Positions 12,532-42,149 of a DNA stretch of 42,149 nt are shown here, piece by piece. The stretch lies in the IMG/VR virus record IMGVR_UViG_3300033153_003790, positions 1-42,149 of that record. One strand, given 5' to 3'. The stretch comes from a virus. Numbering within the stretch: the stretch's first letter is position 1; the number at the start of each line of letters is the position of its first letter. Position numbers and translations under genes: made by a program. The notes below the pieces were generated by a model that worked only from the letters and a program-made list of their open reading frames with translations, had not been told where the DNA came from and did not search any database.

Positions 12532-12560
12532 ATTATACACATGAGAGTCTGCGAAGTCAA
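12532..12560 (-). promoter_or_regulatory. Late-operon promoter (sigma70-type)
   Basis: On the minus strand: TTGACT (12560-12555), 17-bp spacer, TATAAT (12537-12532). The only strong promoter seen upstream of the small terminase gene, and it probably drives the whole leftward unit with host RNA polymerase. Confidence 0.85.
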
Positions 12561-16449: not shown

Positions 16450-16721
16450 TGATTAAAACAAATGCCCTGACCACGGCAGAGTATCTGGCGGACGTAGAAA
16501 AACGGTTTAATAAGGACCGAGATTACGCATGGTGCGATAGATTACTAGCTGATATAGAAAACGAGAGCCTAAAAGCGCCCGAAGGAGAAAAAATGAGCAA
16601 GAAATATGAAAAACTTTGGCTATTTTTAATCCTTCTAGGCATAGGGCTTATCGCTTTTCTCGCTGGTTGCGGGGCGTGTTTCTTATTTTTTTCCTTGACA
16701 TCGGCTCTCGGCTGGCTATAA
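16449..16721 (+). CDS. Small membrane protein with two possible starts (90 or 42 aa)
   Basis: Residues 1-48 are soluble and charged. From ATG 16593, with its own strong ribosome site (GAAGGAGAAAAA), comes MSKKYEKLWLFLILLGIGL, leading into a long hydrophobic stretch that includes AFLAGCGACF. This may be one membrane segment, or a lipoprotein-type signal (LAGC). A long and a short form from one frame resembles dual-start holins, but the gene is in the early block. The promoter at 16695-16722 lies inside its 3' end. Confidence 0.6.
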   Translation: MIKTNALTTAEYLADVEKRFNKDRDYAWCDRLLADIENESLKAPEGEKMSKKYEKLWLFLILLGIGLIAFLAGCGACFLFFSLTSALGWL

Positions 16722-16722
16722 T
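16695..16722 (+). promoter_or_regulatory. Promoter of structured leader E
   Basis: TTGACA (16695-16700), 16-bp spacer, TATAAT (16717-16722): both boxes perfect. Transcription should begin at about 16729, exactly where the first strand of the pseudoknot starts. Confidence 0.85.
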
Positions 16723-16728
16723 TAGGGC

Positions 16729-16982
16729 ATGAGAGATAGGCTAAACACAACAATAGCAAATACCGCTGGCAAGGCTTGTCTCTCAATACCTGTCATAGCC
16801 AGCAAATGCAGGCAGTCGCTGGGAATGCTCGGCGGCTGCTTTTTGCCGCCTGGGGCGTACAACTCCTCCTTTTCTCCTTTGGTTAGTAGTGAACGAGGGT
16901 TCCAGCTAGAGCAAAGCGCTCCAGGTTGGTTGCGGATTGACCGTAGCCGGAACGACTATACGCGCTCCAGGCGGTATTTATA
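16729..16982 (+). ncRNA. Structured RNA E: 5'-end pseudoknot and long leader
   Basis: Hand-folded. Stem 1: TGAGAGA (16730-16736) with TCTCTCA (16779-16785). Stem 2: GCTGGC (16765-16770) with GCCAGC (16798-16803). The order 1-2-1'-2' is an H-type pseudoknot at the RNA 5' end. Further on are a GGCGGC/GCCGCC hairpin (near 16830-16850) and a 10-bp direct repeat GCGCTCCAGG (16916, 16962). An 84-codon open frame over this region has no ribosome site and an odd composition, so I read it as non-coding. It may act as leader of the gene at 16983. Confidence 0.6.
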
Positions 16983-17168
16983 ATGGTTGACGAAAAATAC
17001 ACTACTGAGTTCTTAGAGTTGACGGATATGTTGCCTCCTGATAAGGACGAAAACCTAGACTACGCAGGACAATTACAATTCACGCGCCAGGAAGTAAGAG
17101 AAATGCTTTGGAAGATGTATATCTGGGGCAAAAATAGAGCTTTAGATAAGAGAAATGCTCATGCTTAA
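16983..17168 (+). CDS. Hypothetical protein (61 aa)
   Basis: MVDEKYTTEFLELTDMLPPD ... QFTRQEVREMLWKMYIWGKN. The 'FTRQEV..ML......GK' end is seen in small phage proteins of unknown function. Ribosome site is weak, in keeping with control by the long structured leader in front. Overlaps the next gene by 14 bp. Confidence 0.65.
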   Translation: MVDEKYTTEFLELTDMLPPDKDENLDYAGQLQFTRQEVREMLWKMYIWGKNRALDKRNAHA

Positions 17169-17400
17169 ACGACTAGCCAGATGGGTGTTGCGAGAAGAGA
17201 TAGCAGATTTAGACGATTCTATCAGTCTTCAATGCCAAGAGCTTTTAGATAGAGATAACGCACATAATGCGGCGATATGCTCTCTATTAGGAAGGCTCAC
17301 AGCCAACAAGGGCGAGAAGTTTACCGACCCTTATGATTATTGTACTTATGTGTGCAACCAGACAAGCTCCATTGTAGGATACTGGAAACCTCAAAAATAA
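17155..17400 (+). CDS. Hypothetical protein (81 aa)
   Basis: MLMLKRLARWVLREEIADLD..., a basic amphipathic N-terminus, then helix, then a Cys/Tyr-rich end (YDYCTYVCNQTSSIVGYWKP). No family recognised. The small-RNA promoter A starts 13 bp after its stop. Confidence 0.68.
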   Translation: MLMLKRLARWVLREEIADLDDSISLQCQELLDRDNAHNAAICSLLGRLTANKGEKFTDPYDYCTYVCNQTSSIVGYWKPQK

Positions 17401-17412
17401 ATAATTTTTCTC

Positions 17413-17440
17413 TTGACTTCGAGGATTCTGATGCTAGAAT
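17413..17440 (+). promoter_or_regulatory. Promoter of small RNA A
   Basis: TTGACT (17413-17418), 16-bp spacer ending in TGC (extended -10), TAGAAT (17435-17440). Nearly the same boxes as at 17641, and TGC-TAGAAT recurs at 19488-19496. Confidence 0.85.
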
Positions 17441-17446
17441 AAAGAT

Positions 17447-17532
17447 ATGAGCACAGGAATACTCAAATACGCTCGAATAAAACCGTCAAACGTGAGTTCT
17501 CCTGTGTTCTCCACGGTTGGCGGTTTTTCTTT
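17447..17532 (+). ncRNA. Small RNA A: pseudoknot with intrinsic terminator
   Basis: About 86 nt. Stem 1: 17449-17458 with 17500-17509 (GAGCACAGGA / TCCTGTGTTC, 10 bp, one G-U). Stem 2: 17479-17489 with 17517-17527 (AAAACCGTCAA / TTGGCGGTTTT, 11 bp, one G-U), followed by a T-rich run to 17532. The loop of stem 2 contains the 3' strand of stem 1, giving a pseudoknot that involves the RNA 5' end and the terminator hairpin. Small RNA B has the same plan with different paired bases. Stem 2 can extend with CGTG/CACG. The loop contains CTCCTGT, complementary to the ACAGGAG ribosome site used by several early genes. Confidence 0.75.
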
Positions 17533-17570
17533 CGGCAAAGAGCAAGACAATGCCCGGCAACTATAACATC

Positions 17571-17620
17571 CAGGGCGTACAGCGCAAGCTGCCTGAACTG
17601 CGCCTTGGGTGTTTTCTTTT
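17571..17620 (+). terminator. Hairpin with T-rich tail downstream of small RNA A
   Basis: CAGGGCG (17571-17577) pairs with CGCCTTG (17601-17607), enclosing a small CAGC-GCAA-GCTG hairpin, and is followed by GTTTTCTTTT. It could be a second terminator for read-through from A. Confidence 0.5.
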
Positions 17621-17640
17621 GAAGAAATCTTATTTTTCTC

Positions 17641-17669
17641 TTGACTCAGAGACTTCTTATGTATAGAAT
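17641..17669 (+). promoter_or_regulatory. Promoter of small RNA B
   Basis: TTGACT (17641-17646), 17-bp spacer, TAGAAT (17664-17669). The stretch TAGAATGAAGATATGA continues identically at 19491-19506 and nearly so after promoter A. Confidence 0.87.
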
Positions 17670-17675
17670 GAAGAT

Positions 17676-17763
17676 ATGAATCGGAGACCGAACATACCGA
17701 ATCGTACTGAACCGTTAGCCGTGAGTTTCCTCCGATTCTCCACGATTGGCGGTTCTTTTTTTG
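17676..17763 (+). ncRNA. Small RNA B: pseudoknot with intrinsic terminator
   Basis: About 88 nt. Stem 1: GAATCGGAG (17678-17686) with CTCCGATTC (17730-17738), 9 perfect pairs. Stem 2: 17709-17718 with 17746-17755 (GAACCGTTAG / TTGGCGGTTC, G-U pairs included), followed by seven T. Stem 1 differs from that of small RNA A at most positions while pairing is kept, which supports a selected RNA structure. Loop blocks CGTGAGTT and TTCTCCACG are shared with A. No open frame with a ribosome site lies within. Function unknown: an independently transcribed regulatory RNA is the simplest reading. Confidence 0.78.
17756..17762 (+). terminator. Intrinsic terminator of small RNA B
   Basis: Stem 17709-17755 followed by seven T. 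The stem is at the same time helix 2 of the pseudoknot, so pairing of the RNA 5' end with the loop could influence termination. Confidence 0.75.
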
Positions 17764-17788
17764 CAGACATAGTAGTTCGACCGTTTTT

Positions 17789-17850
17789 GGGCGTAGCGGC
17801 TGGCAACCACAACTGTGGCTCTGTGGCTGGTTCGACTCCAGCAACGCCCC
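17789..17850 (+). tRNA. tRNA-like element, degenerate (tRNA-His-like?)
   Basis: 62 nt. Acceptor-like stem GGGCGT (17789-17794) with ACGCCC (17844-17849). T arm GCTGG-TTCGACT-CCAGC (17826-17842) with a proper 7-nt loop. An anticodon-like arm CCACA/TGTGG encloses CTGTGGC, which would read GTG (His), but with an extra A and a bulged C. There is no D arm: only 11 nt separate acceptor and anticodon arms. Not a normal tRNA; a decayed tRNA, or a tRNA mimic made with the neighbouring small RNAs. No CCA is encoded. Confidence 0.35.
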
Positions 17851-17862
17851 TTTGGGCAACAG

Positions 17863-18183
17863 ACACCGTGTCTGTATACAGATGGTCGGCAGGCCACTGT
17901 TCCCTCTCTTCTGTAAGTTTTTGTCCCCATTTGGGCTTACAGACTCCTGACCGAGCGACGCCGGACAGCAGAAATTATTTTTCCATTTTTTTGCTCAATA
18001 ATTTTCTTTGGCAAGTTATTGGGAATAGTGGGCTGGACTGGTTGCAAGGTAATGTTACACCCTGTAGTAGAACCCTTTAGGGCGACTGCTGGACGGTAGA
18101 GCGAAGGGAAGAGAAAAGAGCCAAAGGGGAAGGTACGCCGTTTTTATAGCTATTTATTATGGGTTATAGCTATAGGAGAAGAA
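17863..18183 (+). other. Gene-free structured stretch with tandem ATAGCTAT sites
   Basis: No gene with a ribosome site. It holds a CTGTAAG/CTTACAG hairpin (17911-17917 / 17936-17942), a long-range pairing CCGGACAGCAG / CTGCTGGACGG with a tandem GA mismatch (17961-17971 / 18086-18096), and two TTATAGCTAT copies exactly 20 bp apart (18144-18153, 18164-18173) just before the ribosome site of the next gene, like tandem operator half-sites. Confidence 0.5.
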
Positions 18184-18360
18184 ATGATGCAATATCTATC
18201 CGCTGGCGATTATGCAGAAGCCATACTTGAAGCTGAGATCGAGAAGCTCAAGGCCGAGAACGAGAAGCTGAAGGCAGACAACATTAAACTGAAAATCTTG
18301 GCTGATAACGCCTTGGTCCTAGCACAGCAGGAAGCGGCGAAGGTGAAGAATCATGCCTGA
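18184..18360 (+). CDS. Small coiled-coil protein (58 aa)
   Basis: MMQYLSAGDYAEAILEAEIE then KLKAENEKLKADNIKLKIL: leucine-zipper heptads, ending AAKVKNHA. Ribosome site TAGGAGAAGAA overlaps the second TTATAGCTAT repeat. The C-terminal codons (gaagc-gcgaaggtgaagaa) recur twice in the next gene, so the pair grew by local duplication. Probably dimerises, perhaps with the next product. Confidence 0.7.
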   Translation: MMQYLSAGDYAEAILEAEIEKLKAENEKLKADNIKLKILADNALVLAQQEAAKVKNHA

Positions 18361-19048
18361 ACGATGCCCGATTTGCGATACGGAACTGGTTCACTACTAC
18401 TGCCCAACATGCAAGCGGCGCGTGCGGGATGAAATTCTTGAGTGCGAGATTGAGACCTATTGCAATGCCATCAAGGGGTGGCAAAGGGTCAACGCCGAAC
18501 TCAAGGCCGAGAACGAAAAGCTGAAGGCCAAATACGAAGGGCTCAAGCGTGCATGGCAAGCTGCAAGCAATGTTGTTGATACCTATGCCCCCAAAGCATC
18601 GGCAACACACATGTTACATGACAAGGTGTTTTGGCTTGGACGGCAATATGAGCAACTTAAGGCCGAGAACGAAACGCTCAAGGTCGATAATGAGCGGATG
18701 AAAGCTAAGAACGCCAGAACTTATCGCGTATGTAAATGTGGTTGCTTAGTCCACGGCACGCTAGAACACCCCTGCGACAAATGCGGCAGCCTTGAATATA
18801 AGAATATTGAAATAGCCTGGGGTGAAATGTTGGCCGAGAACGAGCAGCTTAAGGCGTTTATAGACTTATTACAAAGAAAAATGTCAGACTTGTATCCCCC
18901 CGAAGCAACAGCGAAGGTGAAGAAATGCCCCAAGTGTGGCAATCACCTGATTGAACCTTCAAGTGCTAACAGCAGGTGGTGGTGCAGCGATTGTGAGTTG
19001 ATGTTCACCATTGACGCCCCCGAAGCAACAGCGAAGGTGAAGAAATGA
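18353..19048 (+). CDS. Zinc-ribbon and coiled-coil protein (231 aa)
   Basis: Three Cys clusters: CPICD...YCPTCKRR (residues 5-22), CKCGCLV...HPCDKCG (near 124-140) and CPKCGNHL...WWCSDCEL (near 190-216). Between them lie coiled coils with repeated LKAENEKLKA motifs. The last 40 residues are bracketed by a repeated ATAKVKK. It looks like a modular, duplication-built scaffold or nucleic-acid-binding protein. Function unknown. Starts inside the end of the 58-aa coiled-coil gene. Confidence 0.72.
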   Translation: MPERCPICDTELVHYYCPTCKRRVRDEILECEIETYCNAIKGWQRVNAELKAENEKLKAKYEGLKRAWQAASNVVDTYAPKASATHMLHDKVFWLGRQYEQLKAENETLKVDNERMKAKNARTYRVCKCGCLVHGTLEHPCDKCGSLEYKNIEIAWGEMLAENEQLKAFIDLLQRKMSDLYPPEATAKVKKCPKCGNHLIEPSSANSRWWCSDCELMFTIDAPEATAKVKK

Positions 19049-24571: not shown

Positions 24572-24600
24572 TTGACATTGAGTGGTTCTCCGTGTATCTT
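24572..24600 (+). promoter_or_regulatory. Promoter of structured leader D
   Basis: TTGACA (24572-24577), 17-bp spacer, TATCTT (24595-24600). The predicted RNA start is near 24607, the first base of a 14-bp stem. Confidence 0.7.
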
Positions 24601-24606
24601 TGAGCA

Positions 24607-24724
24607 TGCAATAACTGCGATGAGCTACAAAAATAACAACTCGTCCCCTTTAGCGATTGCAACACTTCCAAGTGTCGCAGTTATTGCACCTATTGGGGGC
24701 GGGTCTGTTTATGGAGAATCACCA
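24607..24724 (+). ncRNA. Structured RNA D: 14-bp 5'-end stem before the HNH gene
   Basis: TGCAATAACTGCGA (24607-24620) pairs perfectly with TCGCAGTTATTGCA (24675-24688). A CCCCT block (24645-24649) inside can pair with GGGGG (24695-24699) outside, giving the same interlocked order as in A, B, C and E. An inner CACT/AGTG hairpin is at 24663-24674. Ribosome site and start of the HNH gene follow. The second helix is short here, so the pseudoknot is less certain. Confidence 0.55.
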
Positions 24725-25171
24725 ATGCGAACAAAAGAGTGTTTTAAGTGCGGTAAGGTGCTGCTACTTTCAGAGTTTTATAAGCATCCTGAAATGAGAG
24801 ATGGGCACTTGGGGAAATGTAAAACTTGCACAAAGGCAGACGTACACGCTAATTACCGGAAGAACCGAGAACACTATGCCGAATACGAAAGGCGTAGATT
24901 TAAGAGTAGCGCTAGGAAGTTGTTGATTAAAGAATATGCCCACCGTAGAAGAATGCGGTATCCAGAAAAAGAAAAGGCACATAGTGCTGTTAACCGTGCT
25001 ATTCGCAGTGGAAAACTTATTCGAAGTTGCTGTGAAATATGTGGAAGAAAAGGAGAGGCGCACCATGAGGATTACACCAAGCCTTTTGATATAAGATGGT
25101 TGTGCTTCTACCATCATAGGAAATTGCATGGGCAAGACCCTTTTAAGGACAACGAAAATGTCAAAGCTTGA
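24725..25171 (+). CDS. HNH endonuclease (homing type)
   Basis: 148 aa. N-terminal zinc finger ECFKCGKVLLLSEFYKH...GKCKTC (5-37), a basic middle, and the nuclease core CCEICGRKGEAHHEDYTKPF (near 108-127) then WLCFYHHRKLHG (near 130-141), with the His-His and Asn/His pattern of HNH enzymes. Such genes are often mobile and free-standing in phages. It has its own promoter and structured leader (D), unlike its neighbours, which fits an inserted element. Confidence 0.85.
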   Translation: MRTKECFKCGKVLLLSEFYKHPEMRDGHLGKCKTCTKADVHANYRKNREHYAEYERRRFKSSARKLLIKEYAHRRRMRYPEKEKAHSAVNRAIRSGKLIRSCCEICGRKGEAHHEDYTKPFDIRWLCFYHHRKLHGQDPFKDNENVKA

Positions 25172-41769: not shown

Positions 41770-42149
41770 CTACAATGAACCTTGCAGCATAACCAAAGGC
41801 CCATCGTTAGATGCATCGCCAACCATTACATAACCGGCATACTGACTGGTGACATAAGTTTCGATGTTGCCATGAACATCAATCGAACCGTCATGCCTCC
41901 ACCAAGCGCCGCCAAGATAGGTATTGCCAACGGTAGCCTGCGGTGCAACAAATACCGGGCCGCGTGTCTTGACCCAACCATAATAATTGTCGGTAAGCAG
42001 TGCTAGCGGGATACCAATAAATCCCTGCGTACCACCCGAATTGCCCTGCTTGGCAGCGCTATATGGATTCGCATAAAGCTCCATATTATCCGAGGTAGTA
42101 ACAGCTACGGCTAATGGGCGGTCAAGATACAATTTGGTCGTGGTTCCAG
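41770..42149 (-). CDS. Putative virion protein, 3' part (gene split by window ends)
   Basis: C-terminal 120-odd residues of the 256-aa protein that starts at 505 on the other side of the circular junction. It is rich in Gly, Tyr and Val and ends in LVMLQGSL. A separate start at 42132 appears if the window is read linearly, but this is only the truncated view: the frame continues through the 114-bp overlap to the ribosome site at 505. The 30-aa basic gene starts 13 bp downstream. Confidence 0.8.
   Translation of the reverse strand, partial: GTTTKLYLDRPLAVAVTTSDNMELYANPYSAAKQGNSGGTQGFIGIPLALLTDNYYGWVKTRGPVFVAPQATVGNTYLGGAWWRHDGSIDVHGNIETYVTSQYAGYVMVGDASNDGPLVMLQGSL
42036..42149. repeat. Terminal direct repeat (right copy)
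   Basis: Second copy of the 114-bp overlap with 1-114. It lies inside the virion gene that runs from 505 down to 1 and continues from 42035 down to 41770. Confidence 0.93.

Follow-up and report, generated by a model that had tools for sequence, protein, structure and literature searches.

The pseudoknot of RydC, an Hfq-dependent small RNA of enterobacteria, has been experimentally established, is required for the stability of the RNA in vivo, and belongs to an RNA that binds Hfq (PMC4337610). On the E. coli K-12 sequence, we located helix 1 of RydC at positions 12-18/35-41 and helix 2 at positions 25-33/49-57, after which comes TTTTCTTT; a free seed of 11 nt forms the 5' end of the molecule, helix 1 has 7 bp and the linker measures 6 nt. 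Other described systems have separate elements of this layout. The type III antitoxin RNAs (ToxI, CptI, TenpI) are H-type pseudoknot RNAs with a terminator nearby, and they form tandem repeat arrays whose processing is the work of the endoribonuclease toxin next to them (PMC5086642). The C4 antisense RNA of phages P1 and P7 is regulatory and is transcribed from a promoter of its own. Finally, the HMP-PP (thiS) riboswitch has a conserved terminator loop and a possible pseudoknot in the terminator (PMC6478431).

The window analysed here, that is, the whole stretch of 42,149 bases, begins and ends with an exact 114-bp direct terminal repeat (positions 1-114 and 42036-42149), indicating that the contig probably represents a complete genome whose joining point is arbitrary. 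Its structural genes (terminase, head-tail adaptor, major head protein and large tail protein) are podovirus-like, the last of these proteins being similar to its counterparts in epsilon15 and in pelagiphages, and searches with the terminase, portal and exonuclease returned distant relatives only and no close ones. Nothing pointing to a planctomycete host was found. Two predicted small RNAs, A and B, spaced 229 bp apart, sit in a stretch of about 780 bp that holds no convincing genes and lies between two rightward runs of small genes. The features of this stretch are the following:

17413..17440, plus strand: promoter of A (TTGACT, 16 nt, TAGAAT)
17447..~17533, plus strand: predicted small RNA A, with helix 1 arms at 17449-17458 / 17500-17509, a linker at 17459-17479, helix 2 arms with inner stem at 17480-17494 / 17512-17526, and a T-run to ~17532
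17565..17625 (17534-17632 in the scan), plus strand: hairpin C between A and B, a long terminator-like stem AACATCCAGGGCG...CGCCTTGGGTGTT, then TTTTCTTTT
17641..17669, plus strand: promoter of B (TTGACT, 17 nt, TAGAAT)
17676..~17762, plus strand: predicted small RNA B, with helix 1 arms at 17678-17686 / 17730-17738, helix 2 arms with inner stem at 17709-17723 / 17741-17755, and a T-run to ~17761

Hairpin C is the most stable hairpin of the region (z about -5.0, the lowest of the 13-27 kb scan) and has no promoter of its own. Beyond B, positions 17789-17849 (plus strand) are tRNA-like, with an acceptor-like pairing (GGGCGT...ACGCCC) and a perfect T-arm (GCTGGTTCGACTCCAGC), but this stretch has only 61 nt, lacks a normal anticodon arm and was called by neither ARAGORN nor Rfam; it is possibly a degenerate tRNA, and its reading as an attP site was dropped because no integrase appeared among the proteins searched. 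Further on, 21-bp in-frame repeats (18226-18296 and 18500-18549) encode a heptad-like coiled coil (EKLKAEN), first in a short ORF at ~18184 and then in the ORF that follows it.

The coordinates of A and B, their promoters, both helices and the T-runs all came out as the initial annotation had given them, and its proposal of two tandem small-RNA genes with a covarying pseudoknot and the terminator as helix 2 is supported. Both promoters are preceded by TTTTTCTC. In A, helix 1 consists of GAGCACAGG(A)/(T)CCTGTGTTC, and in B of GAATCGGAG/CTCCGATTC, in an identical register (RNA positions 3-12 / 54-63); helix 2 is AAACCGTCAA/TTGGCGGTTT and GAACCGTTAG/TTGGCGGTTC, respectively, extended by an inner CGTG/CACG stem and followed by the T-run. 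Since helices 1 and 2 do not overlap in either RNA, both can coexist as a knot rather than alternate as a switch. Single-strand folds of A and B with the knot left out gave z = -3.3. If the inner stem forms, the linker between the 3' arm of helix 1 and helix 2 is 2 nt long, so that the knot requires a partly open inner stem or unusual stacking, and the folding energies leave room for competition between structures during transcription. The blocks CGTGAGTT and TTCTCCACG, which had been described as conserved loops, are indeed conserved between A and B, and between these two paralogues only, as the searches found the blocks in a comparable context in no other genome; as loops they do not stand, because they consist mostly of the CGUG/CACG inner stem, with a few bases of the linker added, and are thus largely part of helix 2.

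A and B share with RydC the 1-2-1'-2' order of the arms, the terminator hairpin as helix 2 and the T-run after it. They differ from it in having helix 1 start at +3, a linker of 21 nt and several copies in one phage. The +3 start takes +1 as the seventh base after the -10 hexamer, and with this predicted 5' end A and B have no free 5' seed before helix 1. There was no sequence match between RydC and A or B, nor a sequence-and-structure match to the RydC family model of Rfam. More generally, Rfam gave no match to A or B even at E up to 10 and nothing convincing when L208, L066 and L082, elements of other phages presented below, were included, and blastn of A and B in phages found none. Matches to the loop-block pattern, taken as possible relatives, amounted to 45 and 54 stretches in IMG/VR and 47 in GTDB; none combined the knot with a T-run, and they were discarded as chance. 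Hence the statement that the plan was undescribed no longer applies to RNAs in general, given RydC, whereas for phage RNA classes it stands as far as we could find. The distinction from ToxI arrays that had been drawn for A and B was upheld, as positions 16600-18400 contain no type III repeat array and none of the neighbouring proteins tested matched a ToxN/AbiQ-type toxin family. Likewise, the Rfam C4 model did not match A, B or L082, and A and B are not adjoined by an antirepressor (ant-type) gene. The HMP-PP (thiS) riboswitch differs in that its states are mutually exclusive and control thiamin genes, whereas the helices of A and B are compatible with each other.

Counted from the predicted start, the alignment of A with B is gapless and shows 59% identity. 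Nine helix 1 pairs are common to both and in five of them both bases had changed, in line with the initial observation that the sequence differs while pairing is kept; among 28,340 column-shuffled alignments the maximum was 4 double-changed pairs, reached in 14, and 5 were never seen. The helix 1 arms and linker are identical at 15 of 41 positions (37%) and the hairpin frame at 30 of 37 (81%; Fisher p = 9e-5), indicating that the knot-forming arms have changed together within a frame that was kept. This covariation is between two paralogues, A and B, the further knots described next being single sequences; covariance models are unable to represent a pseudoknot.

Every promoter-like site of the window was scanned for a helix starting at the transcript 5' end and crossed by a second helix. 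Besides A and B, the scan returned two knots, Z and Y, which the initial annotation had missed, as it had the occurrence of the same plan in other phages:

16695..16722, plus strand: promoter of Z (TTGACA, 16 nt, TATAAT; 12/12 consensus bases)
16729..16844, plus strand: candidate RNA Z, with helix 1 at 16730-16742 / 16773-16785 (13 pairs), a 6-bp crossing helix at 16765-16770 / 16798-16803, a separate, strong terminator hairpin at ~16810-16842 and a T-run at 16840-16844
24572..24600, plus strand: promoter of Y (TTGACA, 17 nt, TATCTT)
24607..~24710, plus strand: candidate RNA or leader Y, with helix 1 at 24607-24622 / 24673-24688 (16 pairs) and a 10-bp crossing helix at 24639-24648 / 24695-24704

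By itself, Z scores inside the range of shuffled sequences and its crossing helix is short; Y by itself exceeds all shuffles (score 59), and is followed first by GGAGA and then by the ATG start of an endonuclease VII-like gene (24725-25171). On these predictions, the phage has at least two, and probably four, short knot RNA genes. A leftward promoter before the terminase genes (12532-12560, minus strand; TTGACTTCGCAGACTCTCATGTGTATAAT) shows a similarity to the promoters of A and B that reaches far outside the hexamers, and its transcript start has no knot.

The predicted starts of A, B and Z all carry an ATG, from which reading frames of 39, 134 and 84 codons, respectively, remain open, and their codon scores are compatible with coding, although this scoring is too weak to decide. 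The conservation could then be that of small proteins translated from leaderless messages. Yet the differences between A and B fall on codon positions 1, 2 and 3 in numbers of 9, 13 and 9, with no third-position excess, the frames run across the terminators, the compensatory pairs would need another reason, and the Z frame matched no protein family; we consider this explanation very improbable. A kept hairpin frame and kept linker bases, next to a helix 1 that varies while its pairing is maintained, would also be expected of protein-binding or decoy RNAs, whose knot would bind a protein of the host or the phage (such as a chaperone, a nuclease or a defence factor) and for which the helix 1 sequence would be irrelevant; the multiple copies in one genome agree with this. 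However, no protein partner or toxin-like gene was found nearby and the frame sequence of A and B is absent from Z and Y, so a purely protein-directed role seems to us rather improbable.

A descriptor of the plan (promoter, 5' arm, terminator hairpin and loop partner) run over ~1.1 Mb of viral loci retrieved A, B and L082 only, and its shuffled control gave 1 match in 62 replicates. The top scores of a knot scan over 1.6 Mb were those of L066 (66; 12 + 12 perfect pairs), L082 (61) and Y of the window (59), the best of 72 shuffled sets reaching 53.5. An extended promoter, TTTTCTCTTGACT, is common to L066, L208, A and B; it was a scan with this string that brought in L208, whose helices 1 and 2 have 13 and 11 bp, respectively, and which also has TTTTTTCTTT. 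Whole records of L066, L082 and L208 contained one strong element each. The promoter string alone was rejected as a class marker, since L208 was the only clear fit in 122 sites and again in 120; one member of the 122-site set, L299, looks like a tRNA. The L082 knot lies just 5' of a Rha-type regulator gene, and no comparable knot was found upstream of relatives of that gene. As a position control on real DNA, 10,012 promoter-like sites in 3.74 Mb were scored at the 5' end and at 11 shifted offsets. Knots scoring at least 48 numbered 10 at the 5' end versus 0-4 (mean ~2) at the shifted offsets, and those scoring at least 55 numbered 4 versus 0-1, figures that are indicative because the loci were non-random and the thresholds were chosen with A and B already known.

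It should be considered that the single scores of A, B and Z are also reached in shuffled or shifted sequence, as would happen if ordinary promoters and terminators lay beside fortuitous inverted repeats or DNA operator half-sites. Nevertheless, A and B covary at a fixed register, an operator would keep its sequence, which helix 1 of A and B does not, four sites occur in one 42-kb genome and Y lies far above all shuffles; we regard chance as a most improbable explanation.

The main rival arises from the position of Y, L208 and L082 right before a gene, where they directly precede the ribosome-binding site. All these RNAs could be cis-acting attenuators, in which the promoter drives the downstream operon and the frequency of read-through is determined by pairing between the 5' end and the terminator loop, perhaps under the control of a protein or ligand. 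Every example is located upstream of same-strand genes, and a simple scan lists no plus-strand promoter-like site between B and 19874, so that the next genes may need either read-through or an unrecognised promoter. In A and B, however, the knot helix and the terminator occupy separate bases, which argues against a classical either-or switch, another terminator follows A, and about 400 bp without a convincing gene follow B. On balance, knot-gated read-through appears unlikely to us, if less so than the explanations weighed above.

The reading we prefer, with a probability of about 0.5, is that A and B are small RNAs of a compact, RydC-like kind whose 5' end is protected and which act in trans by base-pairing. 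It is suggested by complete transcription units, with promoters, both helices and T-runs recognisable in the sequence; by the 5 compensatory pairs at fixed register in a 9-bp helix; by the divergence of the presumed specificity part within a kept frame; by the RydC order and T-run, together with the need of RydC for its knot to be stable; and by the repetition of the plan at Z, Y, L066, L082 and L208, plus the enrichment at 5' ends. Several points speak against it: the first 11 nt of RydC are free as a seed and helix 1 of A and B starts at +3, the 2-nt linker would strain the knot if the inner stem forms, and the location of three of the elements fits a cis role too. Also counting against it, the 5' parts and loops of A, B, Z and Y showed no complementarity to the translation starts of the phage beyond that of shuffles, and A and B no significant complementarity to the rest of its genome.

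As trans-acting RNAs, A and B would be separate phage small-RNA genes of ~85-90 nt, each with a sigma-70-type promoter and an intrinsic terminator of its own and probably expressed early in infection; we infer this expression from the consensus promoters. The 5' end would be held in the terminator loop, conferring stability, with the linker exposed and the arms different between copies. The shared hairpin frame would presumably serve a chaperone or other protein, and the fast-changing 5' arm and linker would give each copy its base-pairing specificity, the knot being released on contact with the target. Z would be a third RNA of this type and Y a fourth, or a leader form.

Because no described family was matched and the layout occurs in three other phages, these elements make good candidates for a kind of phage regulatory RNA that has been overlooked. 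A bolder reading, which we consider less likely than not, is a dispersed and undescribed phage RNA class set by plan and not by sequence, in which the 5' bases are knotted into the RNA's own terminator hairpin, with four uses in this genome and one in each of several unrelated phages, as stable trans regulators or as knot-gated terminators. Judging from the sequence, the feature is real, it is broader than the initial annotation saw, and its fold has a known precedent in RydC. Few small RNAs of environmental phages have been catalogued, since pseudoknots of drifting sequence escape both searches by sequence and tools for nested structures; a rule based on the plan (promoter, 5'-end arm and terminator loop partner) finds such knots, connects them with the RydC fold and yields, in a genome that looks complete, transcripts that can be tested for. 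Action in trans would make them riboregulators, carried by the phage, of host or phage genes; action in cis, a compact new type of terminator control.

Two of the elements from other phages have peculiarities of their own. At positions 4270-4310 of L208, an ATG within helix 1 opens a 10-codon peptide (MSKSNETNYN) with its stop at the start of helix 2, and the Phe_leader family of Rfam gave a weak match, below threshold (E 0.42); this element is possibly a leader-peptide attenuator. In L066 (8030-8170), further long complementary blocks (CCGGTTCGACC/GGTCGAACTGG and GAGTGAC/GTCACTC) lie beside the two 12-bp helices, pointing to a more elaborate fold.
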